Source: Nocardioides sp. BP30 (GTDB lineage Bacteria > Actinomycetota > Actinomycetes > Propionibacteriales > Nocardioidaceae). From it: DNA of 64,000 nucleotides. Of this stretch, positions 20,060-38,378 are shown piece by piece; within the stretch, counting starts at the first letter, position 1, and every line of letters begins with the position of its first letter. The notes under the pieces are model-generated. The model ran no database searches, was not told the DNA's origin, and saw only the letters and a program-made list of their open reading frames with translations. The translations under genes were made by a program, and so were the position numbers. The stretch covers positions 2,356,001-2,420,000 of the forward strand of contig NZ_CP123620.1 of the NCBI RefSeq assembly GCF_029873215.1, in the 5' to 3' direction.

Positions 20060-20112
20060 CGCCGTAGCGCCGGGCCGCCCCAGCGCCGGAGCGCCGGAGC
20101 GCCGCAGCGCTC
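20057..20112. repeat. Seven imperfect 8-bp repeats between convergent genes
   Basis: Octamers with consensus NAGCGCCG run in register from the rhaM stop (the first unit contains the TAG) to the stop of the enoyl-CoA hydratase gene: two TAGCGCCG, one decayed, CAGCGCCG, two GAGCGCCG and CAGCGCTC. The repeats fill the whole 51-bp gap. Confidence 0.75.
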
Positions 20113-20899
20113 AGCGTCGCTCGAAGCGCGCCGTACGGCGCTCGGCGAAGGCGCGCCGACCCTCGGCCGCATCCTCGGTCGCGAAGCAGATGGTCTGCAG
20201 GTCGCGCTCGTAGGCCAGTGCCTGGTCCTCCGACATCGCCGTCGCCGCCTGCACGTTGATCTTGGCCGTCTCCACGGCGATGGGAGCGCGGGAGGCGATC
20301 GTGGAGGCGAGCCCGCGGGCTCGCGTGAGCAGGTCGTCCGGTGGCAGCACCTCCGAGACCAGGTGCCAGTCCAGAGCCTGCTGCGCGTCGATCGGGTCGC
20401 CGGTCATCAGCATCAGCGCGGCGTTGCTCGGCCCGGCGGCTCGGGAGAGGAACGCCGACATGCCGCCGCCGCCGATCCAACCGAGCTTGACCTCCGGGGC
20501 ACCGAGGCTGGCGTTGGTCGAGGCCAGTCGGATGTCGCACGACAGCGCCGTCTCGAGGCCGCCGCCGAGCGCGTAGCCGTTGATCGCGGCGATGGACGGC
20601 TTGCGCAGCTTGCGGAGCGCGTCGCAGTAGTCGACCCGGTTGCGGAAGTCCCAGGGCGTCGCGTAGGAGTCCAGCGCGGTGATGTCCGAGCCCACGCTGA
20701 AGGAGCGCTCGCCGGCACCGGTGAGGACCACGGCACGGACGTCGTCGCTGAGGTTGCACTCCGACACGGCGGCGACGAGTGCCTGAGCCATGGCGGGCGT
20801 CAGGGCGTTGAGCTTGGCGGGCCGGTCGAGCGTGATGGTCGCGACCCGCGTGGCGCGGTCGATGTCGAACCTGACGGCTCCCTCGGTGCTCTGCGGCAC
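20111..20899 (-). CDS. Enoyl-CoA hydratase/isomerase family protein
   Basis: Crotonase-family enzyme of 262 residues acting on an acyl-CoA thioester. Both catalytic Glu positions of true hydratases are present: GGGLETALSCDI (about residue 110) and GAPEVKLGWIGGGG (about 130). The oxyanion region SVGSDITALDSYA is near residue 63. GTG 20899 is chosen because AGGAG lies 6-10 bp upstream and the domain begins about 10 residues later. It is divergent from the FAH-dehydratase operon across a palindromic operator, so it probably belongs to the same regulon and may work on the product of the CoA-transferase at 23392. Its natural substrate is unknown. Confidence 0.88.
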   Translation of the reverse strand: MPQSTEGAVRFDIDRATRVATITLDRPAKLNALTPAMAQALVAAVSECNLSDDVRAVVLTGAGERSFSVGSDITALDSYATPWDFRNRVDYCDALRKLRKPSIAAINGYALGGGLETALSCDIRLASTNASLGAPEVKLGWIGGGGMSAFLSRAAGPSNAALMLMTGDPIDAQQALDWHLVSEVLPPDDLLTRARGLASTIASRAPIAVETAKINVQAATAMSEDQALAYERDLQTICFATEDAAEGRRAFAERRTARFERR

Positions 20900-21034: not shown

Positions 21035-21934
21035 GTGCAGATCGTCCGCGCCCGTTTCCCCGACGCCAGCACGGCCCGAAGCGCGGTGTTGACCGACAAG
21101 GGTCTGCATGTGCTCTCCGCCGACCTCCCCGAGCTCCTGGCCGGGTCCGCCCAGGAACTGCGGGCGGCGGTCGAGGCCGCGCTGCGAGGCACGCCGCAGC
21201 CTGCCGGCGACGTACCGATCGAGGCTCCCGTCGGCGGGCTGACCGAGGTGTGGGCTGCCGGCGTCACCTACGAGCGCTCCCGCGAGGCACGGATGGAGGA
21301 GAGCGAGAAGGAGGCCGACATCTACGACCGCGTGTACGACGCGGAGCGCCCCGAGCTGTTCTTCAAGGCGGCCTCCTGGCGGGTGGCGGGCACGGGCGAG
21401 CCGATCAGCGTGCGAGCCGACTCGCCGGTCAACGTGCCCGAGCCGGAGCTCGCGGTGGTCGCGAACCGGTACGGCGAGATCGTCGGCTACACGATCTGCA
21501 ACGACGTCAGCTCACGCAGTATCGAGGGCGAGAACCCGCTCTACCTCCCGCAGGCCAAGGCCTACCTGGGCGCGTGCGCCGTGGGGCCGGGGATCACCCC
21601 CGCCTGGGAAGTGCCGGATCCCCGGGGGCTTCCGATCCTGATGTCGATCGAGCGCGACGGTGACCGGGTCTGGTCCGGCGAGGCGAACACCGGTGAGCTG
21701 CATCGCGAGCTCGGTGACCTGGTCGACTACCTGTTCCGTGAGGACGACTTCCCGCACGGCGTCGTGCTGGCGACCGGGACCAGCCTGGTCCCCGACCTGC
21801 CCTTCACCCTCCAGGGCGGGGACACGGTCTCGATCGAGCTGGTCGGGCTCGGCACTCTGCGCAACCCTGTGGTGGTCGGCAAGGCCGGCATCGCCCACCT
21901 CGTCGAGCGCGTGCAGAAGGAGCAGACCCCATGA
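21035..21934 (+). CDS. Fumarylacetoacetate hydrolase-family protein, probable 2-keto-3-deoxy sugar acid dehydratase
   Basis: A 299-residue FAH-superfamily enzyme. The metal ligands are visible as EPE in VPEPELAVVAN (about residue 134) and the Asp in CNDVSSRSIEGENPLYL. The AAGVTYERSREARMEES-type segment and AKAYLGACAVGP resemble FAH-fold 2-keto-3-deoxy-pentonate dehydratases (XylX, KdaD). The next gene encodes alpha-ketoglutarate semialdehyde dehydrogenase, the enzyme that follows such a dehydratase in Weimberg-type pathways, which supports this role. GTG 21035 has GGAGGAG 9 bp upstream. It overlaps the following ATG by 4 bp. The exact sugar acid is not determined. Confidence 0.8.
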   Translation: MQIVRARFPDASTARSAVLTDKGLHVLSADLPELLAGSAQELRAAVEAALRGTPQPAGDVPIEAPVGGLTEVWAAGVTYERSREARMEESEKEADIYDRVYDAERPELFFKAASWRVAGTGEPISVRADSPVNVPEPELAVVANRYGEIVGYTICNDVSSRSIEGENPLYLPQAKAYLGACAVGPGITPAWEVPDPRGLPILMSIERDGDRVWSGEANTGELHRELGDLVDYLFREDDFPHGVVLATGTSLVPDLPFTLQGGDTVSIELVGLGTLRNPVVVGKAGIAHLVERVQKEQTP

Positions 21935-23382
21935 CCATCGCCACCATCGAGAGCATCGACGCCCGTACCGGAGCAGTCCGCGGACCCAGCTTCCCCGAGA
22001 CCTCGGCCGAGCAGGTAGCCGCTGCCTGCGCCGCCGCGGCGGCCGCGGCCCCCGGTTGGGTGGCGACGTCGCGTCCCGAGCGGGCCCGGCTGCTGGAGGA
22101 GGTGGCGAGCGCACTGGAGACGCGCGCCGCCGAGGTCGTCGCGTGCGCTGACGCGGAGACCGCTCTCGGCACGCCCCGGCTGACCGGGGAGCTGGCGCGG
22201 ACCTGCTTCCAGCTGCGCTTCTTCGCCGAGGTGATCCGTGAGGGCTCCTACCTCGAGGCCACGGTCGACCATGCCGACGACTCGCCGATGGGCCCGCGTC
22301 CCGACCTGCGCCGGATGCTGATCCCGATCGGGCCGGTGGCTGTCTTCGGCGCGAGCAACTTCCCGTTGGCCTTCTCGGTGCCCGGCGGGGACACCGTCTC
22401 CGCGCTGGCCGCCGGGTGCCCGGTCGTCGTCAAGGCGCACGAGGCGCACCCGGCGACCTCGGTGCTCTGCTTCGAGACGATGCGCGCGGTGCTGCCCGAT
22501 GGTGTCCTCGCCCTCGTCCAGGGTCGCGACGCGGGGACAGCGCTGGTCGCGGATCCCCGCATCCGAGCCGTCGGCTTCACCGGCTCCACCCGCGGGGGCC
22601 GCGCGCTGGCCGACCTCGCCGCGGCACGTCCCGAGCCGATCCCGTTCTACGGCGAGCTCGGCAGCGTCAACGCGCTCTTCGTGACGCCGGCCGCAGCGGC
22701 CGCCAGGGCGGAGGAGATCGGCCGCGGTCTGGCCGACTCCTTCACCCTCGGCGCCGGCCAGTTCTGCACCAAGCCGGGTCTCGCGCTGGTGCCGACCGGA
22801 GCCGACGGCGACGCCCTGCGCGACGCGCTGGTGGCCGCCTCGCAGGGACGCACCTTCACGATGCTCACCGACGGCATCCGGCACGCCTACGAGGCGTCGA
22901 CCGGCACGCCGGACGAGCGCACCGTCGCCCCCACGGTCGTCGAGGTGGCCGCCGGTGAGCTCACCTCCGATCAGCTCGAGGAGGTGTTCGGTCCCTATCT
23001 GGTGCTCGCGCGGTACGGCTCGGTCGACGATCTCGACGCGGCCGTCAGCGTCCTGCCGGGCGCGCTCACCGCGACCGTGCACGGCGAGAGCGACGACGAG
23101 CTCGGCGCCGACCTCGCCCGCACGCTGCCCGGCCGTGTGGGACGCGTCGTCTGGAACGGCTACCCGACCGGTGTCGCCGTCGGCTGGGCGCAGCACCACG
23201 GTGGCCCGTGGCCGGGCACGAACACGCTGCACACCTCCGTCGGCGCGACGGCGATCCGGCGGTTCCTCCGGCCGGTCGCCTGGCAGTCGGCACCCGCCTC
23301 CGTCCTCCCCGAAGAGCTCCGCGACGACTACGACGGCATTCCCCGCCGTGTCGACGGTGTGCTCCGGCTCCCTCACTCCTGA
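21931..23382 (+). CDS. Aldehyde dehydrogenase, 2,5-dioxovalerate (alpha-ketoglutarate semialdehyde) type
   Basis: A 483-residue aldehyde dehydrogenase of the NADP-linked subgroup that oxidises 2,5-dioxopentanoate to 2-oxoglutarate. Diagnostic segments are VFGASNFPLAFSVPGGDT (about 143), VVKAHEAHP, GFTGSTRGGRAL, the catalytic Glu in YGELGSVN (about 250) and the catalytic Cys in GAGQFCTKPGLAL (about 278). The subgroup lacks the usual PWNFP entry motif, as here. It overlaps the FAH gene by 4 bp. Together they would carry a 2-keto-3-deoxy acid into the TCA cycle. Confidence 0.87.
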   Translation: MTIATIESIDARTGAVRGPSFPETSAEQVAAACAAAAAAAPGWVATSRPERARLLEEVASALETRAAEVVACADAETALGTPRLTGELARTCFQLRFFAEVIREGSYLEATVDHADDSPMGPRPDLRRMLIPIGPVAVFGASNFPLAFSVPGGDTVSALAAGCPVVVKAHEAHPATSVLCFETMRAVLPDGVLALVQGRDAGTALVADPRIRAVGFTGSTRGGRALADLAAARPEPIPFYGELGSVNALFVTPAAAAARAEEIGRGLADSFTLGAGQFCTKPGLALVPTGADGDALRDALVAASQGRTFTMLTDGIRHAYEASTGTPDERTVAPTVVEVAAGELTSDQLEEVFGPYLVLARYGSVDDLDAAVSVLPGALTATVHGESDDELGADLARTLPGRVGRVVWNGYPTGVAVGWAQHHGGPWPGTNTLHTSVGATAIRRFLRPVAWQSAPASVLPEELRDDYDGIPRRVDGVLRLPHS

Positions 23383-23391
23383 AGGCCTCCC

Positions 23392-24573
23392 ATGCCCGTC
23401 CTGTCCGGATACCGCGTCCTCGACCTCTCCATCGCCATGGCCGGCCCGCTGGCCGCGATGCGCCTGGGCGATCTCGGCGCCGACGTCCTCAAGATCGAGC
23501 CGGTGACGGGGGAGTGGCAGCGGCACACCTCCGCCGGTGGCGCCGTCGGCAACGAGGTCAACGCCTCGTTCCTCTCCCTCAACCGCAACAAGCGCAGCCT
23601 CGCCGTCGACCTCAAGAACCCGGCGGGCAGGGAGCTCGTGCTCCGCCTCGCTGCCGAGTCCGACGTCTTCCTGCAGAACTACCGGCCCGGTGTCGCGGCG
23701 CGGCTCGGTCTGGACGAGGCGTCGGTGCGCGCCGTCCGGCCCGACATCGTCTACGTCTCCATGAGCGGGTACGGCGAGGACGGGCCCTACGTGAACCGCC
23801 CCGGACAGGACCTGCTGCTGCAGGGCCTGAGCGGGGCCCTCTACAGCGCCGGTCGTGCCGAGGACCCGCCGCAGGCCGGCCCGTCGTTCATCGCCGACGC
23901 GATCACGGCGTACTCCGCCTTCGAGGGCGTGCTCGCCGCGCTGCTCCACCGTGAGCGCACCGGCGAGGGCCAGAAGGTGGAGGTGAACATGCTCGACGCC
24001 ATGATCGCGATGCAGATGCAGGAGCTCTCGGTGCGCACCGTGGGCGGCGTGCCGCAGACGCGCGGCCACGAGATCCATGCGCACAGCTACATCCGGGCGC
24101 CGTACGGCATCTTCCCCACCAGCGACTCCTACCTCGCCCTCGCCTTCGCCGACCTGTCACTGCTCGCGGAGGTGTTCGGTGACGCCGAGCTCGCGCAGTG
24201 GGACGCCGAGCGCGACGGCTTCAAGCAGCGCGACGCCATCTCGGCGGCGGTCGCGCGTCACCTGCGCACCGACACCACCGCCTCGTGGCTCGAGCGGCTC
24301 GGCAACAGGGGCGTGTGGGTCGGGCCGGTGAACTCCTACGACGACGTGCTCGAGGACCCGCAGGTCAAGCACAACGGCAGCTTCGTCACCTACGACCACC
24401 CGACCGAGGGCAGCGTCACCACCCCCGGCTTCGCCTTCCACCTCACCGCCACCCCGGCGTCGGTCGAGCGCGGTGCTCCGACGGTGGGCCAGCACACGGC
24501 CGAGATCCTCACCGAGGCCGGGCTGGGCGCCGACGAGATCGAGGCGTTGCTCCGGGACAAGGTGATCGCGTGA
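23392..24573 (+). CDS. CaiB/BaiF (class III) CoA-transferase
   Basis: A 393-residue class III CoA-transferase, which moves CoA between carboxylic acids. The N terminus LSGYRVLDLSIAMAGPLAAM, the segment GDLGADVLKIEP, NRNKRSLAVDLKN, and the putative catalytic Asp in RPGQDLLLQGLSG (about residue 142) are all typical. The fold of this family is an interlocked homodimer. The acid substrate is not evident. Its place between a sugar-acid dehydrogenase and a solute-binding-like protein suggests that a sugar-derived acid is activated as a thioester. The stop overlaps the next GTG (GTGA), so the two products are made together. Confidence 0.9.
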   Translation: MPVLSGYRVLDLSIAMAGPLAAMRLGDLGADVLKIEPVTGEWQRHTSAGGAVGNEVNASFLSLNRNKRSLAVDLKNPAGRELVLRLAAESDVFLQNYRPGVAARLGLDEASVRAVRPDIVYVSMSGYGEDGPYVNRPGQDLLLQGLSGALYSAGRAEDPPQAGPSFIADAITAYSAFEGVLAALLHRERTGEGQKVEVNMLDAMIAMQMQELSVRTVGGVPQTRGHEIHAHSYIRAPYGIFPTSDSYLALAFADLSLLAEVFGDAELAQWDAERDGFKQRDAISAAVARHLRTDTTASWLERLGNRGVWVGPVNSYDDVLEDPQVKHNGSFVTYDHPTEGSVTTPGFAFHLTATPASVERGAPTVGQHTAEILTEAGLGADEIEALLRDKVIA

Positions 24574-25661
24574 GCGCTCCCGCACCCGAGGGAGCGGCGC
24601 TGCGGGGCATGACCTGGGACCATCCGCGCGCCTACCTCGCCCTGGAGGCCTTCGAGAGCACCGGTACGGCGCCCCGCGTCGCCTGGGACCGGCAGTCGCT
24701 CGCGGACTTCGAGGCGCACCCCATCGACGAGCTCGCGCGGCACTACGACTTCATGGTCATCGACCACCCGGGTCTGGGGGCGGCGATCGGGGCAGGTGCG
24801 CTGGCGGCGTACGAGGACGTGCTCGCTCCGGAGGCGCTGCGGCACTGGTCGGACGGCGCGATCGGCGCGAGCGGTGCCAGCTACCGCCTCGGCGAGCGGA
24901 CCTGGGCACTGCCGATCGATGCCGCGGCGCAGGTGACGGTGCGGCGCCCGGAGGTTCCGGTCGTGCGCCGCTGGGAGGACGTCCCGGCGGCTGCCGAGGA
25001 GCATCCGGTGGCGCTGTGCCTGGCGGGCCCGCACGCCGGGCTGATGCTGCTGGCCATGTGCTCGGCCTCGCCGACCTACGACGAGGACCGATTGCTGGAC
25101 CCGCTCACCGCCGGCCGGGCCGTGGACCTGTTGCGTGAGGTCTTCCGGCGCGGTGCTCGCGACATCCTGGACCCGATCGGCGTGCACGAGCTGCTGGCCA
25201 CCGGCGAGGGTGCGACCTGGTGCCCGCTGGCCTACGGATACGTCTCCTACGCCGACCGGCTGGCCTGGAGCGACGCACCGACGTGGCACGGCAGCGGGCC
25301 GCTGAGCGTCCTGGGCGGGACCGGCCTCGCGCTGGCCGCCCGGACGGCCGCCGATCCGGCGCGGCTCGCGGCCGCCCGGGCCTGGGTGGCCGCCTACCTC
25401 GACGACGAGGTCCAGGCGAGGCTCGTACCACGTTCGGGCGGTCAGCCGGCCACCCGAACGGTCTGGGTCGGTGGCGATGCGTTCTACGCCGACACCGTCG
25501 CGACCCTCGAGGCCGCCTGGGTCCGCCCTCGGTCGGCGGGCTGGATCGCGTTGCAGGACCACCTCTCCGAGCTGGTCCGTGAGGCGATCGTGGAGGACCT
25601 CGACGCAGCGACGGCGATCGCGGATGTGAACCACCGCTACGCAGCCCTTCGACAGGGCTGA
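24570..25661 (+). CDS. Cytosolic solute-binding-protein-like protein
   Basis: A 363-residue protein resembling family 1 extracellular solute-binding proteins, but with no signal peptide, lipobox or N-terminal hydrophobic segment: it begins VSAPAPEGAALRGMTWDHPR. Fold-like features are the early segment YDFMVIDHPGLGAAIGAG, the hinge-like ALPIDAAAQVTVRRP (about residue 112) and PLAYGYVSYADR (about 215). It overlaps the CoA-transferase stop by 4 bp, and no transporter gene adjoins it. It may bind a sugar acid or be an enzyme subunit built on the binding-protein fold. I recall similar signal-less proteins beside CoA-transferases, but no function is established to my knowledge. Confidence 0.7.
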   Translation: MSAPAPEGAALRGMTWDHPRAYLALEAFESTGTAPRVAWDRQSLADFEAHPIDELARHYDFMVIDHPGLGAAIGAGALAAYEDVLAPEALRHWSDGAIGASGASYRLGERTWALPIDAAAQVTVRRPEVPVVRRWEDVPAAAEEHPVALCLAGPHAGLMLLAMCSASPTYDEDRLLDPLTAGRAVDLLREVFRRGARDILDPIGVHELLATGEGATWCPLAYGYVSYADRLAWSDAPTWHGSGPLSVLGGTGLALAARTAADPARLAAARAWVAAYLDDEVQARLVPRSGGQPATRTVWVGGDAFYADTVATLEAAWVRPRSAGWIALQDHLSELVREAIVEDLDAATAIADVNHRYAALRQG

Positions 25662-25735: not shown

Positions 25736-26482
25736 ATGGGTGTTGCCGTCGTGACCGGAGCGGGAGGATCGCTCGGACGGGCGATCGCGCTCCGGCTGGC
25801 GCAGGACGGTCATCGTGTGGCCGTCACCGACGTCGCCGAGGCGGCGTTGAAGGAGACGGTCGAGGCGGTGTCGGACATCACCGGCGCGGTGTGGTCCAGC
25901 GTCGTCGACCTGCGCGACGACGAGGCGCTCGGCGCCTTCTTCGCGGGCGTCCGGCGCGAGCTCGGACCGGTCACCGCGCTGGTCAACAACGCCGCGATCT
26001 ACCCGACGGTGCCCTTCCTCGACATGGAGGTGGGCGACTACGACGCGGTGCAGGAGGTGAACCAGCGCGGCTACTGGCTGTGTGCGCAGCTCGCCGGACG
26101 CCAGATGATCGCCGCCGAGGGAGCCGAGGACAGGTCGATCGTCAACATCGCCTCCATCACGATGCACGGCGGGTGGGAGCACCTGGCCGCCTACGTGACG
26201 ACCAAGGGCGCGGCGGTGACGATGGCACGTGCCCTGGCCCGCGAGCTGGGTCCGCACGGCATCCGCGTCAACGCAGTCTCGCCGGGGGCGTTCAAGACGG
26301 CCGCCGAGGAGATCTACGACGATCCCGAGGCCTACAGCGCCATGGTCGTCGAGCGGCAGGCGCTCAAGCGGCGGGGCACGCCCGCCGAGCTCGCCGCCGT
26401 CGTGTCGTTCCTGACCGGTCCGGACGCCGCCTTCGTGACCGGTCAGACCATCGAGGTCAACGGCGGATGGGTGATGGCATGA
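25736..26482 (+). CDS. Short-chain dehydrogenase/reductase
   Basis: A classical SDR of 248 residues. The cofactor motif is TGAGGSLG (about residue 7), NNAAIYPTVPF marks strand 4, the Ser of the active site is in IASITMHGG and the Tyr/Lys pair in AAYVTTKGA (about 151). The C terminus TGQTIEVNGGWVMA is standard. Acidic residues after strand 2 (TDVAE) suggest NAD. It probably oxidises a sugar or sugar acid in this cluster. ATG 25736 has GGAGGAG upstream. The stop overlaps the DUF4432 start (ATGA). Confidence 0.85.
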   Translation: MGVAVVTGAGGSLGRAIALRLAQDGHRVAVTDVAEAALKETVEAVSDITGAVWSSVVDLRDDEALGAFFAGVRRELGPVTALVNNAAIYPTVPFLDMEVGDYDAVQEVNQRGYWLCAQLAGRQMIAAEGAEDRSIVNIASITMHGGWEHLAAYVTTKGAAVTMARALARELGPHGIRVNAVSPGAFKTAAEEIYDDPEAYSAMVVERQALKRRGTPAELAAVVSFLTGPDAAFVTGQTIEVNGGWVMA

Positions 26483-27543
26483 GCACGGACCAGGTTCCGA
26501 CCCGGCGCGAGATCGCGCGCCACGCGGGCGAGACCAGCGCGTACGGCGGGGTGCGCAGCGTCGTCCTCGGTGACGGCGTGGAGCGCGGCATCCGGGTGCT
26601 GGAGTTCCGCACCGGCGGCGGCCTCTGCTTCGAGGTCCTGGTCGACCGGGCGATGGACATCGGCGTCGCCGAGCTGGACGGTGTCTCGGTCGGCTGGCGC
26701 TCCCGCACCGGCTTCCGGCATCCCGGGCTGCATGAGAACGCGGACGAGGAGGGGTTGTCCTGGCTGCGCAGCATGTCGGGGCTCCTCGTGACCGGCGGCC
26801 TCGACCACACGCTCTTCGGTGGCGACGTCGACGCCACCCACTACGCCTACCCGCCCAAGCAGACGGTCCGGCACGGCCTGCACGGCCGGGTGGCCAACAT
26901 CCCCGCCCGGCTCATCGGGTACGGCGAGGACTGGGTCGCCGAGGACCGCTGCGTCCTGTGGGCCGAGGGCGAGATCACCCAGGCCACCAACTTCGGCGAG
27001 CACCTGGTGCTGCGCCGCCGCATCGAGGCCGACCTCGGCGGGACCGAGATCCGGCTGACCGACATGGTCACCAACGCCGGCTTCGACCGCACGCCGCACA
27101 TGTTCCTCTACCACGTCAACGTCGGGTGGCCCTTCCTCGCGGAGGGGACCCGGTTCGTCGCCGACATCGAGGAGACGCTGTGGCGCAGCGACAGCGTGGC
27201 CGAGCAGGGTGTCGACCACCTCGTCTTCGACCAGCCGCTGCCGGGCTTCGTCGAGCAGGTCTACGAGCACCGGCTCACCGCGGATGAGGCCGGCCGCCAT
27301 CGGGTCGGGCTGGTCAACGACGCCCTCGGCAGGTCCTTCGAGGTGGACGTGGACGCCGAGGCGTTCCCGTGTTTCTTCGAGTGGCTCAACCTGCGCGAGG
27401 GTGGCTGGGCCGTCGGGCTCGAGCCGTCGACGCATCACGTCGCCGGCGATGCGGCGGCGCGCGAGGACGGCTCGATGATCTGGCTCGAGCACGGCGAGCA
27501 GCGCCGCTACGAGACCGTCTTCCGGTTCGGCCGGACCCGGTGA
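26479..27543 (+). CDS. DUF4432 protein, aldose-1-epimerase-like fold
   Basis: A 354-residue protein matching the DUF4432 family, related to galactose mutarotases. Recognisable segments are RVLEFRTGGGLCFEVLVDRA, MDIGVAELDGVSVGW, GLLVTGGLDHTLFGG, the His-rich RHGLHGRVANIPA (about residue 132) and MFLYHVNVGWPFL. Such proteins usually act on sugars and probably interconvert anomers. It is coupled to the upstream SDR by a 4-bp overlap and ends the left operon, convergent with the regulator gene 20 bp away. A mutarotase next to a sugar dehydrogenase would speed supply of the reactive anomer. Confidence 0.82.
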   Translation: MSTDQVPTRREIARHAGETSAYGGVRSVVLGDGVERGIRVLEFRTGGGLCFEVLVDRAMDIGVAELDGVSVGWRSRTGFRHPGLHENADEEGLSWLRSMSGLLVTGGLDHTLFGGDVDATHYAYPPKQTVRHGLHGRVANIPARLIGYGEDWVAEDRCVLWAEGEITQATNFGEHLVLRRRIEADLGGTEIRLTDMVTNAGFDRTPHMFLYHVNVGWPFLAEGTRFVADIEETLWRSDSVAEQGVDHLVFDQPLPGFVEQVYEHRLTADEAGRHRVGLVNDALGRSFEVDVDAEAFPCFFEWLNLREGGWAVGLEPSTHHVAGDAAAREDGSMIWLEHGEQRRYETVFRFGRTR

Positions 27544-27562: not shown

Positions 27563-28321
27563 CTAGGCCGTCGGCTTCCCGGCGTGGTCGGGAAGTCGGC
27601 GACGCCGCCACGACTCGACGATGTGCCCGTTCATCGCGTCTTGGGCACGCACGGCGTCCTGCTCGGTGATGGCGGCGTGGATGGCCGCGTGCTCGCTGAG
27701 GGTCAGGGCGAACGCGTCGGCGGTGTCGACACCGTGGTAGCGCCAGCTCTCCAGCGCACGCTCCATCAGGATCCGCGCGATGCTCTCGGCCAGGCGGTTG
27801 CCCGAGGTAGCCATCACGACCTCGTGGAACTCGATGTCGGCGTGCCGGAAGGCGGTCTGGTCGTCGACGGTCTCGCGCATCCGCCGCAGCGCCGCGTCCA
27901 GCCGGGCGAGCTGATCGGCGTCGCGGACGCGGGCCGCCTCGGCGGCCATCACGGACTCCAGCTGGGCGCGGATCACGCTCAGCTCGTCGAGGACGCCGAG
28001 GGAGTCGTCGTGCTTGATCAGCGAGGTCAGGACGGTTCGGTCCAGCATGTTCCACGACGAGGTCGGGCGGACCTGGGTGCCGCGACCGCGGGCGATGGTG
28101 ACCAGCCCCTTCTCCTCGACCCGCTTGACGGACTCGCGGATCACGGTGCGGCTCACGCCGAACTGCTCGCTGAGCGGGCCCTCGGGGGGCAGCAGGGTGC
28201 CCGGCTCCAGACGACCCGACACGATGGCGTCGACGAGGTCCTCCACCACCGCGACACCCAGCATCGGGGTGGGACTGCGTCGCTCGGTGACCACGAGGCG
28301 GCGATCGGATTCTGCTGGCAT
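27563..28321 (-). CDS. FadR/GntR-family transcriptional regulator
   Basis: A 252-residue regulator. The GntR winged helix (about residues 22-90) reads VVEDLVDAIVSGRLEPGTLL, SEQFGVSRTVIRESVKRVEE, KGLVTIARGRGTQV. The C-terminal helical FCD domain (about 105-245) has the metal-ligand pattern of this family: the Asp in RHADIEFHEVV, His in the same segment, and later His residues in LSEHAAIHAAI. The inducer is probably an organic or sugar acid. ATG 28321 is chosen because TACACT, a -10 box on the minus strand, lies 8 bp before it (leaderless); longer starts would place the operator inside the coding region. It likely represses itself and the flanking operons. Confidence 0.88.
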   Translation of the reverse strand: MPAESDRRLVVTERRSPTPMLGVAVVEDLVDAIVSGRLEPGTLLPPEGPLSEQFGVSRTVIRESVKRVEEKGLVTIARGRGTQVRPTSSWNMLDRTVLTSLIKHDDSLGVLDELSVIRAQLESVMAAEAARVRDADQLARLDAALRRMRETVDDQTAFRHADIEFHEVVMATSGNRLAESIARILMERALESWRYHGVDTADAFALTLSEHAAIHAAITEQDAVRAQDAMNGHIVESWRRRRLPDHAGKPTA

Positions 28322-28499: not shown

Positions 28500-29687
28500 A
28501 TGCGCATCACGGGCTACCGCACGCTGACCACCCTGCATCGATGGGGCCGTCCGATCGGGGACGTCAACGGACACGTCGCCGCCGGTGTCACGGCCGTGCC
28601 GATCGTGCTCGTCGAGACCGACGCCGGCCTCACCGGGGTCGGACTCGGCGCCCGGGACGGCCTGGACACGGTCTTCCCGGCACTGCTCGGCGAGGATCCC
28701 CGCGCTGTGACAGCGCTCTACGACCGGATGCTCGCCGCTGTCTTCAAGGCCGGCCACGCGGGCTCGGTCTTCGGCGCGATCGGTGCGTTCGACATGGCGC
28801 TGTGGGACCTGAAGGCGAAGGCCGCCGAGCAGCCGCTGTGGCGGATGCTCGGCGCCCGTGACCGCGTCGTCCCGGCGTACGCCTCGGGTCTCGACGGCCC
28901 GCTCGACGACGACGAGCTGCTCCGGCTGCAGGCATCCTTCGCCGAGCGCGGCTTCGGGGCGGTCAAGCTCAAGGGTGGCCTGGACCTGGAGGGGGACCTG
29001 CGCCGCATCCGACTGGTCCGCGACCTCTACGCCGACGCCGGCGCGACCCCCCGCGTGATGCTCGACGCCAACGAGTCCTGGTCGCGCAAGGAGGCCATCT
29101 CCTACCTGCAGCGCCTCGAGGAGCAGGTCGACCTCGCCTGGATCGAGGAGCCTGTACGCCGCTGGGACGCCGACGGACACGCGATGATCAGCCGTGCCGT
29201 GCGGGCCGCCGTCGCCACGGGGGAGAACCTCACCGGCCTCGAGCAGTTCCGGCCGCTCATCCAGGCGAACGCAGTGGACGTCGTGCAGACCGGCAGCGTC
29301 TGGGGCGTCACCCACTTCCTCCGCGTCGCCGCGCTGGCCCAGACCTTCGACCTGCTCGTCAGCCCGGTCGGCTACAACGCCAATCCGCTCGCGCACGCGG
29401 CTGCCGCCGTACCGAACCACGTGGCGACCGAGGTGCAGGACCTCGGCTTCCCGGTGGGGATAGCGGTGGATCAGGAGTACGCCGACGGGGCGATCATCCT
29501 CGGCGACCAACCCGGCCTCGGCCTGGGTGTCGACGAGGCGGCGATCGCCGCGCTCGCCGAGTCGGCCGACTGGGGTGAGGACAAGGGACCGCACGTGCGC
29601 CCGATCAGCGCGGGGCGTCGTCTGCTCGCACCGGTGACGCACGAGTTCGCGCCCGCGCTGACCTCGCTCGCCCCGCCGTCCGCCTGA
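28500..29687 (+). CDS. Enolase-superfamily (mandelate racemase-like) sugar acid dehydratase
   Basis: A 395-residue enolase-superfamily protein, probably dehydrating a six-carbon deoxy aldonate such as L-fuconate to its 2-keto-3-deoxy acid. The capping domain is N-terminal (about 1-125). The barrel shows KLKGG (KxK base motif, about 157), and the metal ligands Asp in VMLDANES (about 187), Glu in WIEEPV (about 215) and Glu in ATGENL (about 240). The usual catalytic His after strand 7 is not obvious: that segment reads SPVGYNANPLAH. ATG 28500 has AAAGGAGG 7 bp upstream. The lactonase gene follows after 1 bp. Confidence 0.82.
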   Translation: MRITGYRTLTTLHRWGRPIGDVNGHVAAGVTAVPIVLVETDAGLTGVGLGARDGLDTVFPALLGEDPRAVTALYDRMLAAVFKAGHAGSVFGAIGAFDMALWDLKAKAAEQPLWRMLGARDRVVPAYASGLDGPLDDDELLRLQASFAERGFGAVKLKGGLDLEGDLRRIRLVRDLYADAGATPRVMLDANESWSRKEAISYLQRLEEQVDLAWIEEPVRRWDADGHAMISRAVRAAVATGENLTGLEQFRPLIQANAVDVVQTGSVWGVTHFLRVAALAQTFDLLVSPVGYNANPLAHAAAAVPNHVATEVQDLGFPVGIAVDQEYADGAIILGDQPGLGLGVDEAAIAALAESADWGEDKGPHVRPISAGRRLLAPVTHEFAPALTSLAPPSA

Positions 29688-29688
29688 C

Positions 29689-30531
29689 ATGCGGATCGAC
29701 GCCCACCACCACGTCTGGGACCTGGACCGGCGCCCCCAACCGTGGACCGAGGACCTGCCGGTCCTGCGCCGGTCGTTCGGGTTCGACGAGCTGACCCCGC
29801 AACTGCTGGCGCACCGGGTCGAGGGGACCGTCGTCGTCCACACCGTGGCCAGCCCCGAGGAGACCGGTGAGCTGCTGGCCCTGGCCGCGGCCGATCCGCT
29901 GGTGGCGGGCGTCGTCGGCTGGCTCGACGTCGAGGCGCCCGATCTCGACGAGACCCTGGCCTCCACCCGGCTGCTCCCGGGCGGCCGGCACCTCGTCGGC
30001 GCCCGCCACCAGCTCCAGGTGGAGCCGGACCGGCAGTGGTTGGACCGGCCCGCGGTGCGCCGCGGTCTGGAGACTCTCGGTGAGCACGGCCTGGTCTGGG
30101 ACCTGGTGGTCTCACCCGAGCAGCTCGGTGACGTCCGCCGGGCGGTGGCCGCGCTGCCGCAGGTCTCCTTCGTGCTCGACCACGCCGGGAAGCCGCCCCT
30201 CGCGGGCGGTGACCTGGCCGCGTGGCGCGCGGACCTGGCCGCGCTCGCGACGCTGCCCAACCTCGCGGTCAAGCTCTCCGGCCTGGTCACGGAGGCGTCG
30301 TGGGACCGATGGCAGGTCGAGGATCTGCGCCCGGCCGCCGATCACGTGCTGGAGCTGTTCGGCCCCGACCGGACGATGTTCGGGTCCGACTGGCCGGTCT
30401 GCCTGCTCGCGGGGGCGGACTACGACAGCGTCGTGGCCACGTTCGACGACCTCGTCGCCTCGTTGACCGCCGCCGAGCGCGCGCAGGTCTGGGGCGACAC
30501 AGCTGTCCGCGTCTACGGACTGGAGGAATGA
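29689..30531 (+). CDS. Amidohydrolase-family sugar lactonase (L-fuconolactonase type)
   Basis: A 280-residue amidohydrolase of the amidohydro-2 group that contains L-fuconolactonase and L-rhamnonolactonase. The N-terminal metal motif HxH is in DAHHHVWD (residues 4-10), a further His in VLDHAGKPP (about 165) and the late Asp in MFGSDWPVCL (about 229). It would hydrolyse the 1,4- or 1,5-lactone made by the sugar dehydrogenase downstream. The gene lies 1 bp after the dehydratase stop and overlaps the aldo/keto reductase by 4 bp, so lactone formation, opening and dehydration are encoded as a unit. Confidence 0.85.
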   Translation: MRIDAHHHVWDLDRRPQPWTEDLPVLRRSFGFDELTPQLLAHRVEGTVVVHTVASPEETGELLALAAADPLVAGVVGWLDVEAPDLDETLASTRLLPGGRHLVGARHQLQVEPDRQWLDRPAVRRGLETLGEHGLVWDLVVSPEQLGDVRRAVAALPQVSFVLDHAGKPPLAGGDLAAWRADLAALATLPNLAVKLSGLVTEASWDRWQVEDLRPAADHVLELFGPDRTMFGSDWPVCLLAGADYDSVVATFDDLVASLTAAERAQVWGDTAVRVYGLEE

Positions 30532-35143: not shown

Positions 35144-36550
35144 ATGGAGATGGTTCCCCGGAACGCCGCCCGCGTACGGCGTTCGCGTCGAGTCAGCCGG
35201 GTTCGGGCCGCGGCACTCGTCGCCGGTGCTGTCGTCGGTGCGCTGAGCCTGGCCGCCTGCGGTGGGCAGAGCGTCGGCGGCAGCACCAGCAAGATCGCCG
35301 ACAGCAACAGCAAGTACGGCTTCAAGACGGCCTCGCAGGACTCGAAGGCGCAGATCACGGTGTGGGTCGACTCGACCCGCGAGCCGATCGCGAAGGCCTA
35401 CAACGCCGCCCACCCCGACGCCCAGGTCAAGATCGTCACCTACGACGGCAACGCGAACGGGTCCAACTCCTTCAAGACCAAGACGCAGCTGTTCGATCGC
35501 GCCGGCTCCGGCTGGCCGGACGTCACCTTCACCACGGACAACAACTCCGCCGCCTGGGGCTCCTTCAGCGGCACCGGCGACCTCGCCGCGGTGAACAAGG
35601 GCCTGGTGCCGGACACCACCCTGAACAACTTCGCGAAGGGCTCGCTCGACGTCTGCACCGTCGACGGCACCTCCTACTGCCTGCGCAACGACCTCGCGCA
35701 GAACGTGCTCTGGTACAACAAGACGCTCATGGACAAGTTCGGCTACCAGGTCCCCACCACGTGGGAGGACTACGAGAAGCTCGCCGACAAGGTCGCCACC
35801 GAGCACCCGGGTTACATCGTGGGCACGGCCGGCGACGCCTGGACGCCGGAGATCTACATGTGGGCCGCCCAGTGCCCCGCCAACGACGTCACCGGCCCCA
35901 AGACGGTCAAGGTCGACACCTCCGACCCCAACTGCGTCAAGGGCGCCAAACTGATCGACGACCTGGTCGCCAACAAGACGATGTCCACGCTGTCCCTGTT
36001 CGGTCCCGACTTCGCCAAGAACGACGCCGACAAGGTCCTCATGCTGCCCGGCCCGTCGTGGTACGGCGGCTCGGTCTTCCAGGGCACCTTGAAGACGCCT
36101 GCGGGCCAGGTCGCCGCCGCACCGGCCCTGAAGTGGGCGGACGCCTCCGACACCGTGACCGGTGACGTGGGCGGCGGCGCGTGGTGGATCTCCTCGCACA
36201 GCAAGAACCTCGCGGCGGCCGCCGACTTCGCCACCTGGGTGACCAGCCAGGCCAAGTACGGCGACGCGCTCGCGCCGACGTACCCGGCCTACACGCCGGC
36301 GGCGCAGACCTGGGCGGCCGAGACCCAGAAGAGCGGCTACTACGCCGACGACATCGTCACGCCGATGAGCCAGGCGGCCGGGCAGGTCTGGTCGGGCTGG
36401 GGCTCGGCGCAGTTCAGCCAGGAGGCGATCTGGGCCAAGGTGGTCCAGGCGGGCATGAGCCAGGGCAAGACCGTCGAGTCGCTGCTGCCGGCATGGCAGA
36501 CCGAGATCGAGAACCAGGCCAAGACCTTCGGGTACGAGGTCACGAAGTGA
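35144..36550 (+). CDS. ABC sugar transporter, substrate-binding lipoprotein
   Basis: A 468-residue extracellular solute-binding protein, family 1. A basic N terminus and hydrophobic stretch end in the lipobox LAAC (Cys about 37), so the mature protein is a membrane-anchored lipoprotein. The segment ITVWVDSTREPIAKAYNAAH opens the mature domain (first part near residue 68), and RNDLAQNVLWYNKTLMDKFG with VPTTWEDYEKLADK is characteristic of sugar-binding members. ATG 35144 has GAAGGAAG upstream. It is followed by two permease genes with a 4-bp overlap to the first. The sugar is probably the one oxidised by the adjoining enzymes. Confidence 0.92.
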   Translation: MEMVPRNAARVRRSRRVSRVRAAALVAGAVVGALSLAACGGQSVGGSTSKIADSNSKYGFKTASQDSKAQITVWVDSTREPIAKAYNAAHPDAQVKIVTYDGNANGSNSFKTKTQLFDRAGSGWPDVTFTTDNNSAAWGSFSGTGDLAAVNKGLVPDTTLNNFAKGSLDVCTVDGTSYCLRNDLAQNVLWYNKTLMDKFGYQVPTTWEDYEKLADKVATEHPGYIVGTAGDAWTPEIYMWAAQCPANDVTGPKTVKVDTSDPNCVKGAKLIDDLVANKTMSTLSLFGPDFAKNDADKVLMLPGPSWYGGSVFQGTLKTPAGQVAAAPALKWADASDTVTGDVGGGAWWISSHSKNLAAAADFATWVTSQAKYGDALAPTYPAYTPAAQTWAAETQKSGYYADDIVTPMSQAAGQVWSGWGSAQFSQEAIWAKVVQAGMSQGKTVESLLPAWQTEIENQAKTFGYEVTK

Positions 36551-37479
36551 CCGCAACCTCCTCCGAGAGGGTCGCGACCGTCGCACCCGAGGCCGCCAGC
36601 AACCGGATCCGTACCGGTTCCTGGCGGCCTCGGGCCGGTCACGCGTTCGTCGCGCCGTACGTGGCGCTCCTGGCGCTGTTCGGCATCATCCCGGTCTGCT
36701 ACTCCATCTACCTCGCGTTCACCGACGTGGGCGGTGGCTTCGTCGGCTTCTCCAACTTCAGCCGCACCGCTCAGGACTACCGCTTCCTGCCGGCGCTCGG
36801 TCACGTCGCCGTCTACCTCCTGATCTGGCTGGTGATGCTGAGCGTCCTCGTGGTGCTGCTCACGCTGCTCGTCCACCAGCTGGTGTCACGCCGCACCAAG
36901 ACGGTGATCAGGCTCGCCTACTACATCCCGGGTGCCCTGGCAGGAGCTTCCAGCGTGCTGCTGTGGCTCTTCGTGCTCGACCCGACGGTCAGCCCGGTCG
37001 CGCCGATCCTCAAGGCGCTGGGCAGCGATCACTTCACCGATGTCGTGGCGCCGGGCCATCTACCGGTCATCTTCGCCGTGATCGCCTTCTGGACCGGTGC
37101 GGGTGGCTGGGTCCTGGTGCTCTACGGCGCCCTGAACACGATCCCGTCCGACGTCCTCGAAGCCGCCAAGGTCGACGGGGCCGGACGGGTCCGGACGGCC
37201 CTGCGGATCCAGCTGCCGATGATCCGCAAGTCGATCACCTACATGCTGATCCTCGCCTTCGCCGCGGGCACCCAGCTCTTCGTGGAACCGCAGCTGATCT
37301 CCCAGGCCAGCTTCGGGATCGTGCCCAACGACTACAGCGTCAACCAGCTCGCCTACCAGTACGCATTCACCCAGAACGACTTCAACGGCTCGGCCGCCAT
37401 CGCGCTGGACCTGCTGGTCATCGCGCTGATCAGCACCGGCCTGTTCGTGGCGCGCGGGCGACTCTTCGAGACCGACTAG
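36547..37479 (+). CDS. ABC sugar transporter permease (MalF type)
   Basis: A 310-residue inner-membrane permease with about six hydrophobic helices, the first at about residues 35-58 (FVAPYVALLALFGIIPVCY). The EAA loop that contacts the ATPase is visible as EAAKVDGAGRVRTALRIQLP (about 212). GTG 36547 overlaps the stop of the binding-protein gene (GTGA). The basic stretch NRIRTGSWRPRAGH precedes the first helix on the cytoplasmic side. It pairs with the next permease. Confidence 0.93.
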   Translation: MTATSSERVATVAPEAASNRIRTGSWRPRAGHAFVAPYVALLALFGIIPVCYSIYLAFTDVGGGFVGFSNFSRTAQDYRFLPALGHVAVYLLIWLVMLSVLVVLLTLLVHQLVSRRTKTVIRLAYYIPGALAGASSVLLWLFVLDPTVSPVAPILKALGSDHFTDVVAPGHLPVIFAVIAFWTGAGGWVLVLYGALNTIPSDVLEAAKVDGAGRVRTALRIQLPMIRKSITYMLILAFAAGTQLFVEPQLISQASFGIVPNDYSVNQLAYQYAFTQNDFNGSAAIALDLLVIALISTGLFVARGRLFETD

Positions 37480-37487
37480 GAGAACCG

Positions 37488-38378
37488 ATGTCCTCCCCTG
37501 CCTCCTACACCGCCCAGCGCTGGGCGGGCCGCTCGCTGGTCGCCGTGGTGCTGATCGTGTTCGGGCTCTTCTTCCTGGTCCCGGTGATCTGGCTCCTGCT
37601 GGCCGGGACCAAGACGAACCACCAGCTGGTCGACGGCAACCCGTTCTCCTTCGGCAGTCTGTCCGCTCTACGGCACAACTGGGACGCCCTGATGTCCTTC
37701 CAGAGCGGGTCGTTCAAGACGTGGATGAAGAACTCGGTGCTCTATGCCGGGCTGGCGCTGGTGATCACGCTGGTCGTCAGCATCCCGGCCGGATACGCGT
37801 TGGCGAAGCTGGACTTCAAGGGCCGTCGCCCGCTGCTGATCGTGACGCTCGTGGTGATGCTGATGCCGACCTCGGCGCTGGTCCTGCCGATCTTCCTCGA
37901 GGTCAACTACGTGCACCTCGTCAACACCCCGCTGTCGGTGATCCTGCCCTTCTCGTTCTTCCCCTTCGGCGTCTACCTCGCCTACATCTACTTCGCCGAC
38001 GCGGTTCCCAGCGAGCTCCTCGAGGCGGCGAAGATCGACGGCTGCAGCGAGGTGCGCACCTTCACCGCCATCGCGCTGCCGCTCGGGATGCCGGTGGTGG
38101 CGCTGGTGGGCTTCTTCAGCTTCGTGCAGAACTGGAACAACTTCTTCCTGCCCTACGTGATGCTGCCGCGCAGCGACGCCTACCCCATGCAGGTCGGGTT
38201 GACGCAGATGCTCACCTCCACGCCCAACTTCAACCCGGTGGTGGGCGCCAGTGCCGAGGTGTCACCGCCGGAGCTCGTGCTGGCGACCCTGGTCTCGGCG
38301 GCGCCCGTGCTCGTCATCTTCCTGCTCGCGCAGCGGTACGTCGTCAGCGGGCTGACCGCCGGCGCGACGAAGGGCTGA
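37488..38378 (+). CDS. ABC sugar transporter permease (MalG type)
   Basis: A 296-residue permease with six predicted helices, beginning with SLVAVVLIVFGLFFLVPVIW (about 16-35). The EAA motif is EAAKIDGCSEVRTFTAIALP (about 182). AGGAG lies 6-10 bp before the ATG. No ATP-binding subunit gene follows: the strand ends here and the next gene is convergent. A shared MsmK-like ATPase encoded elsewhere is therefore likely, as is common for actinobacterial sugar importers. Confidence 0.93.
   Translation: MSSPASYTAQRWAGRSLVAVVLIVFGLFFLVPVIWLLLAGTKTNHQLVDGNPFSFGSLSALRHNWDALMSFQSGSFKTWMKNSVLYAGLALVITLVVSIPAGYALAKLDFKGRRPLLIVTLVVMLMPTSALVLPIFLEVNYVHLVNTPLSVILPFSFFPFGVYLAYIYFADAVPSELLEAAKIDGCSEVRTFTAIALPLGMPVVALVGFFSFVQNWNNFFLPYVMLPRSDAYPMQVGLTQMLTSTPNFNPVVGASAEVSPPELVLATLVSAAPVLVIFLLAQRYVVSGLTAGATKG

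Follow-up and report, generated by a model that had tools for sequence, protein, structure and literature searches.

The solute-binding protein (SBP) fold is used outside transport, as is proposed here for a further protein, in MqnA/MqnD, Thi5, SgrR and cyclohexadienyl dehydratase, all of them from other SBP groups and, to our knowledge, none tied to a CoA-transferase. A similar gene neighbourhood is found in Betaproteobacteria, where Bug/TctC binding proteins, which are exported and of another SBP fold class, lie near CaiB genes. The locus described here belongs to a 64,000-nucleotide (nt) stretch of the Nocardioides sp. BP30 genome (NZ_CP123620.1, positions 2,356,001 to 2,420,000; the window), in which a gene for a CaiB/BaiF class III CoA-transferase (CaiB) overlaps one for an SBP-fold protein with no visible leader (SBPc). 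This pairing recurs in several bacterial phyla and points to an undescribed partnership in sugar breakdown. The favoured reading, held at a probability of about 0.4, is that SBPc may be a cytosolic sugar or sugar-acid binder, derived from an exported family-1 SBP, which serves CoA-dependent sugar-acid catabolism by handing substrate to CaiB. No description of a CaiB-SBPc pair was found in the literature searched, which had preprints and most subscription journals outside its coverage; the folds are known ones, and their combination appears to be absent from that literature.

The gene-neighbourhood survey called for by a preliminary description of this locus found the linkage conserved in both search directions. 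A scan of species genomes with two peptide patterns of SBPc, sensitive only to close relatives, yielded 46 loci, and a full CaiB gene (hidden Markov model score >330, within 400 nt) adjoins SBPc in 36 of them; Nonomuraea accounts for 15 of these full pairs, and at least one occurs in 15 of the 20 genus-level labels. In even samples that include the window's own genome, SBPc was present in 3 of the 396 genomes drawn from the window's phylum and in 4 of the 149 drawn from its family, always with CaiB adjacent. In a sample of 299 Pseudomonadota genomes, 13 carried SBPc, at 15 places in all, 12 of them with CaiB adjacent; the sample includes its centre genome, G548, a known positive and query source, without which the figures become 12 of 298 genomes, 14 places and 12 adjacent CaiB genes. 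CaiB lies ~6.4 kb from SBPc at two Pseudomonadota places (L106, L107), and in G548 the SBPc contig also carries a 37% CaiB match, at a distance of 9.9 kb. The reverse search, with CaiB at E ≤ 1e-110, identified 7 of 394 genomes of the class (the window's own included), at least three of them known beforehand from SBPc searches, and SBPc stands directly downstream in all seven. Chance adjacency should be rare, because the eight genomes counted hold between 1 and 13 CaiB-like matches apiece (E ≤ 1e-20).

In the set of 80 distinct loci, CaiB directly precedes SBPc in 58 and directly follows it in 10; it is 2-3 kb off in 3 and outside the retrieved stretch in 9. The underlying neighbourhood table had 101 rows, 19 of them marked as refetched, and the other 82 contained two identical pairs (L007/L051 and L015/L082). 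It omits the window's own loci (L001, L048, L079) and those with a short SBPc (L046, L047), includes L081-L083 and L085, which entered through CaiB, and counts L099 and L100 as lacking CaiB on the basis of first stretches of 4 kb, wider stretches showing CaiB ~6.4 kb off. The arrangement with CaiB downstream is found on two Bacteroidota plasmids (Rufibacter, Persicobacter), at seven Pseudomonadota loci and in a single genome from the window's phylum (L050). Among the 13 plasmid records examined, of 145 with a match, those of Rhizobium sp. Q54, Sinorhizobium sp. K101 and Sinorhizobium meliloti (pSymA) carry consecutive genes for a Gfo/Idh/MocA protein, a TIM-barrel isomerase, DUF4432, a short-chain dehydrogenase (SDR), CaiB, SBPc, an enoyl-CoA hydratase (ECH) and an importer, while S. 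meliloti pSymB carries CaiB-SBPc as a bare pair. Conserved linkage, as a stable CaiB-SBPc complex would give, is present.

The preliminary description had stated that SBPc begins with ordinary cytosolic sequence, and its relatives bear this out. The family comprises 137 proteins, window SBPc included, taken from two protein searches as the best 120 of 812 matches and the best 120 of the 2566 counted in a profile search, leader status in the latter being judged only among those best 120. By hydropathy and motif position, rather than by a dedicated signal-peptide predictor, no hydrophobic leader, signal peptide or lipobox was seen in window SBPc or in 135 of the 137 members listed, the other two (P0013, P0053) being fragments. 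The motif TWDHPR begins at residue 2 to 36 in 131 members, and a one-letter variant stands near the start of four more (P0029, P0090, P0111, P0123). The highest hydropathy of any 11 residues within the first 40 is 1.52 across the family and 0.66 in window SBPc, against 2.42 in the exported SBP lipoprotein encoded in the same cluster. A hidden signal peptide upstream of SBPc was considered and rejected; the in-frame upstream extension is hydrophilic and arginine-rich. The missing leader contradicts the names of sugar-transport binding proteins that many SBPc relatives carry in databases.

Assignment of SBPc as a family-1 solute-binding-like protein held in part. A predicted structure model confirms a two-lobed MBP-like fold, and SBP_bac_8 and SBP_bac_1 are matched at E ≤ 0.01 by 17 and 16, respectively, of 34 aligned members (window SBPc among them), but the window protein itself matches no Pfam family at E ≤ 10 and gives no match to PF01547 or PF13416 above the curated cut-off. 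Polar residues H18, R20, D65, H66, D117, Y224, R319 and R321 are near-invariant in the alignment, and the near-invariant positions specific to SBPc are W16, H18, R20, W39, H66, D117 and W299. D65 aligns with an Asp of TMBP that we take to be a ligand contact; D117 was tried as the counterpart of a ligand Asp of TMBP and dropped, the alignment setting it two residues away. R319, the conserved Arg of an RPR motif, aligns with LpqY Arg421 (numbering inferred), a residue given among the sugar contacts of LpqY (PMC8603345). Because R319 and D65 align in this way, part of a sugar-binding frame seems to survive in the SBPc pocket, which adds near-invariants of its own.

The GTGA overlap described for the two genes is present: the SBPc GTG at 24570 lies inside the CaiB stop, and the frame ends at 25661 (Table 1). 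This GTG is the likely start, because the conserved LRG just before TWDHPR sits upstream of the next ATG (24609) and because AAGGTGATC stands ahead of it; a codon-model gene caller chose 24609 instead. Of the 58 other loci with CaiB just upstream of SBPc, 37 offer a start at exactly -4 and 14 one at -13, and Shine-Dalgarno-like words, counted without a control, precede 25 of 38 starts at -4. Taken alone, the overlap is weak evidence, since 4-nt overlaps are ordinary in the window cluster (6 of 15 consecutive plus-strand pairs, CaiB-SBPc counted in).

The CaiB partner is intact. It scores 349 bits against PF02515 (cut-off 23.3; E 3.7e-104) and has an Asp at residue 169, as do all 89 aligned sequences, window included; this is presumably the catalytic Asp, with the role that it has in formyl-CoA transferase. 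PF02515 and Asp169 together mark a class III CoA-transferase, and the nearest solved structure is a succinate-hydroxymethylglutarate CoA-transferase (9br7, E 3.5e-60). CaiB falls in no named substrate-specific group: it is far under the score cut-offs of all seven NCBIfam models matched, the best equivalog giving 222 bits against a cut-off of 750. In a tree of 90 CaiB sequences, in which few unlinked ones were sampled, seven unlinked CaiBs group separately (support 0.997); every SBPc-adjacent CaiB falls on the other side (support 0.926), together with 11 non-adjacent ones, of which four are second CaiBs of tandem pairs and seven come from SBPc-bearing genomes or records. Such tandem CaiB genes follow SBPc in L062, L063, L104 and L105, with the copies in separate tree groups, and possibly form a two-subunit CoA-transferase.

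Within 6 kb of the 36 full pairs lie genes for ECH at 35, SDR at 34, DUF4432 at 24, a lactonase-like amidohydrolase at 17 and a fumarylacetoacetate-hydrolase family protein (FAH) at 15. MaoC takes the place of ECH in many Pseudomonadota and both Bacteroidota, and L-rhamnose mutarotase and an enolase-superfamily dehydratase recur in L061, L066, L103, L108 and L110. These companions (ECH/MaoC, SDR, DUF4432, lactonase-like protein, mutarotase, dehydratase) point to a predicted role of the pair in sugar-acid catabolism with a CoA step. The ECH gene runs opposite to SBPc in the window and L002-L005 and in line with it in 31 of the 35 loci of the 46-locus set that have ECH within 6 kb. In a Nonomuraea cluster (L047:6073-9918), the ECH, SBPc and DUF4432 matches are fragmented and that to SDR is short, with CaiB scoring as full.

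In the proposed pathway, the importer of the cluster would bring a sugar into the cell, where mutarotase, dehydrogenase, lactonase and dehydratase would convert it to a sugar acid. CaiB would transfer CoA to the acid itself or to one of its breakdown products, and the resulting CoA ester would be the substrate of the hydratase (ECH or MaoC). In the cytosol, SBPc would bind either the acid in free form or a precursor of it and, in contact with CaiB, pass the bound compound on, a hand-over that might raise the effective concentration or select the right isomer.

Table 1. Features of the window cluster, with a second leaderless SBP of related clusters (window positions unless a locus is given).
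Feature	Position	Strand	Basis
Enoyl-CoA hydratase (ECH, crotonase), usual companion of the pair	20111..20899	-	PF00378 E 1.2e-57
Fumarylacetoacetate-hydrolase family protein (FAH)	21035..21934	+	PF01557
Aldehyde dehydrogenase	21931..23382	+	PF00171
CaiB/BaiF class III CoA-transferase (CaiB)	23392..24573	+	ATG open reading frame, 393 aa; PF02515
GTGA overlap, CaiB stop and SBPc start	24570..24573	+	Read from sequence
Leaderless solute-binding-protein-fold protein (SBPc)	24570..25661	+	363 aa, GTG start
Short-chain dehydrogenase (SDR1)	25736..26482	+	PF13561
DUF4432, aldose-1-epimerase-like	26479..27543	+	PF14486 E 4.6e-90; 3ty1, hypothetical aldose 1-epimerase, E 1.2e-16
GntR/FCD regulator	27563..28264	-	PF00392, PF07729
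Enolase-superfamily sugar-acid dehydratase-like (MR/MLE)	28500..29687	+	PF13378
Lactonase-like amidohydrolase	29689..30531	+	PF04909
Exported SBP lipoprotein of the ABC importer	35144..36550	+	PF01547 (SBP_bac_1) E 2.1e-15; N-terminal hydrophobic stretch ending LSLAAC
ABC permease 1	36547..37479	+	PF00528 (BPD_transp_1) E 2.5e-10
ABC permease 2	37488..38378	+	PF00528 (BPD_transp_1) E 3.4e-18
Second leaderless family-1 SBP, clusters with SBPc and CaiB	L112:9270-10460; L113:6009-7202(-); L062:12550-13794; L063:12452-13696; L101:13770-14936; L102:13978-15000		

In the window, the dehydratase-like protein scores 184.5 bits against the L-talarate/galactarate dehydratase model, below its cut-off of 500, and the lactonase-like protein 240.6 bits against the L-fucono-1,5-lactonase model, below its cut-off of 400. 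The earlier remark that no permease is adjacent is correct for the immediate neighbours of the pair, but the same cluster holds, ~9.5 kb downstream of SBPc, an ATP-binding cassette (ABC) importer (35144-38378) with two BPD_transp_1 permeases and its own SBP_bac_1 lipoprotein; the NCBIfam models gave no match at E ≤ 1e-20 for this lipoprotein or the first permease, both of which Pfam named. SBPc is thus not next to cognate permeases that lack another SBP. Separate leader-bearing SBPs were also seen by eye in other importer clusters (L061, L065, L066, L103, L109, L110, L112, L119). SBPc as the importer's binding protein was therefore rejected as unlikely.

Six clusters with SBPc and CaiB contain a second SBP that, judged by eye, also lacks a leader; the four copies scanned match PF01547 (E 1e-22 to 1e-26). 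In L112 and L113, the gene for this second SBP starts with a 4-nt overlap of the MaoC stop; it comes after the second CaiB in L062 and L063 and after a permease-like frame in L101. In the Pseudomonadota sample, it occurs in 2 of 299 genomes, one the query source and both SBPc-positive. This second protein is the strongest hint that a tie to CoA enzymes may hold for binding proteins as a class. The wider proposal is that cytosolic SBPs present substrate to particular CoA enzymes as dedicated partners: SBPc would serve a class III CoA-transferase, and the second protein a MaoC hydratase or second CoA-transferase, in a CoA-dependent sugar-acid pathway spread across several bacterial phyla; it is speculative, and the odds are well against its holding in full.

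Several observations weigh against a specific hand-over to CaiB. In the 46-locus set, no CaiB lies beside SBPc at seven loci (L014, L023, L025, L034, L038, L042, L044) and CaiB is truncated at three (L017, L026, L039), so SBPc can persist without CaiB next door. A lactate-racemase-like (LarA-like) gene replaces CaiB upstream of SBPc in one Actinoplanes (L025:6716-7972), and a metallo-beta-lactamase-fold hydrolase (PF00753) overlaps the SBPc start in CaiB's place in a Microbacteriaceae metagenome-assembled genome (MAG; L023:230-1201). The LpqY contact Asn151 aligns with SBPc A119 and is not kept. Pairwise distance correlations are 0.81 for SBPc-CaiB (n=67), 0.84 for SBPc-ECH (n=47), 0.92 for CaiB-ECH (n=47) and 0.92 for SBPc-DUF4432 (n=29); the first does not exceed the others, and specific co-evolution, beyond that of the whole cluster, is therefore not seen. 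No full CaiB-SBPc fusion appeared among the 17 matches of a single fusion search, in which only the 8000 candidates sharing most words were scored and six matches examined.

Gene fusion was set aside as a line of evidence: an incomplete SBPc is joined to SDR in P0151 and to an ECH stretch in P0153, and both, each a single member lacking the SBPc N-terminus, are probably frameshift or assembly products. Where genomes were checked for a displaced CaiB, three of eight have a 65-67% match elsewhere, and two of these three (L114, L115) carry a further SBPc copy 2-3 kb from it; in the Acidobacteria MAG L042, which has SBPc, a 42% CaiB match and an ECH lie ~10 kb off on a contig of equal length. The truncated CaiB overlaps SBPc by 4 nt in the Streptomyces clusters L017 (2081-2977, 299 aa), L026 and L039; in L017 the next gene encodes a GH95 glycosidase, and that genome has a full 66% CaiB elsewhere.

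The same observations lend themselves to other explanations. SBPc may be a pathway enzyme, a binding fold that has gained catalysis, e.g., an isomerase, dehydratase or lyase for the step immediately preceding or following that of CaiB. Its many near-invariant polar residues and its retention where CaiB is absent or replaced by the LarA-like or metallo-beta-lactamase-fold gene are in keeping with this, and there is precedent for the evolution of enzymes from SBPs (PMC7683729). Divergence of SBPc is faster, however, than that of the enzymes around it (mean distance 0.51, compared with 0.31 for CaiB and 0.36 for ECH in one set of 47 loci), and the second leaderless SBP of some clusters would require a second such conversion; an enzymatic role is considered doubtful, though a serious candidate. 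GntR, LacI or IclR regulators in the clusters, and again the persistence of SBPc without CaiB at some loci, could instead indicate that SBPc senses or buffers a pathway intermediate in the cytosol, working through regulation or sequestration rather than through CaiB. SBP folds close on their ligand, but SBPc tightly adjoins CaiB and not a regulator in both gene orders, and such a role is rated unlikely.

That SBPc and CaiB are simply operon neighbours in one pathway, with no functional partnership, is in keeping with the frequency of 4-nt overlaps in the cluster and the lack of specific co-evolution; it is quite improbable given that direct adjacency outlasts reversal of gene order and swaps of other genes across three phyla. 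Least credible is an ordinary exported SBP with a leader that has been overlooked or lost, or an importer subunit that leaves the cytosol by some unusual route. Although the fold is that of importer SBPs and many of the clusters contain ABC importers, members of the family other than the two fragments show no leader, the sequence upstream of SBPc is CaiB coding sequence, and the importers inspected (that of the window and those of eight loci, not every importer locus) have a leader-bearing SBP of their own. The preliminary description had suggested a substrate-presenting or regulatory subunit, or an enzyme evolved from a binding protein. Its observation was right and understated, and absence of the leader and conserved linkage speak for its interpretation, which is plausible but unproven; an obligate CaiB subunit is disfavoured by the loci without CaiB, the other neighbours and the lack of excess distance correlation.

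If SBPc serves CaiB, as the presenter reading holds, it would be a new kind of CoA-transferase accessory and would point to a CoA-dependent route by which bacteria of soil, sea and root nodules break down sugar acids. Compared with LpqY/TMBP-type carbohydrate-binding proteins of ABC importers (SBP_bac_1/8), SBPc has no visible signal peptide or lipobox, stands outside the importer of its cluster and is paired with a CoA-transferase. Window CaiB resembles the class III CoA-transferases SUGCT, formyl-CoA transferase and CaiB in its PF02515 domain, its Asp169 and its nearest solved relative, but differs from them in scoring far below the NCBIfam cut-offs and in its linkage to SBPc and sugar-acid genes. 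Benzylsuccinate CoA-transferase (9fn0), with its two kinds of subunit, offers a likeness in that two different polypeptides belong to one class III system, as also in the loci with tandem CaiB genes; both of its chains match CaiB, however, whereas the partner encoded here has a binding-protein fold.
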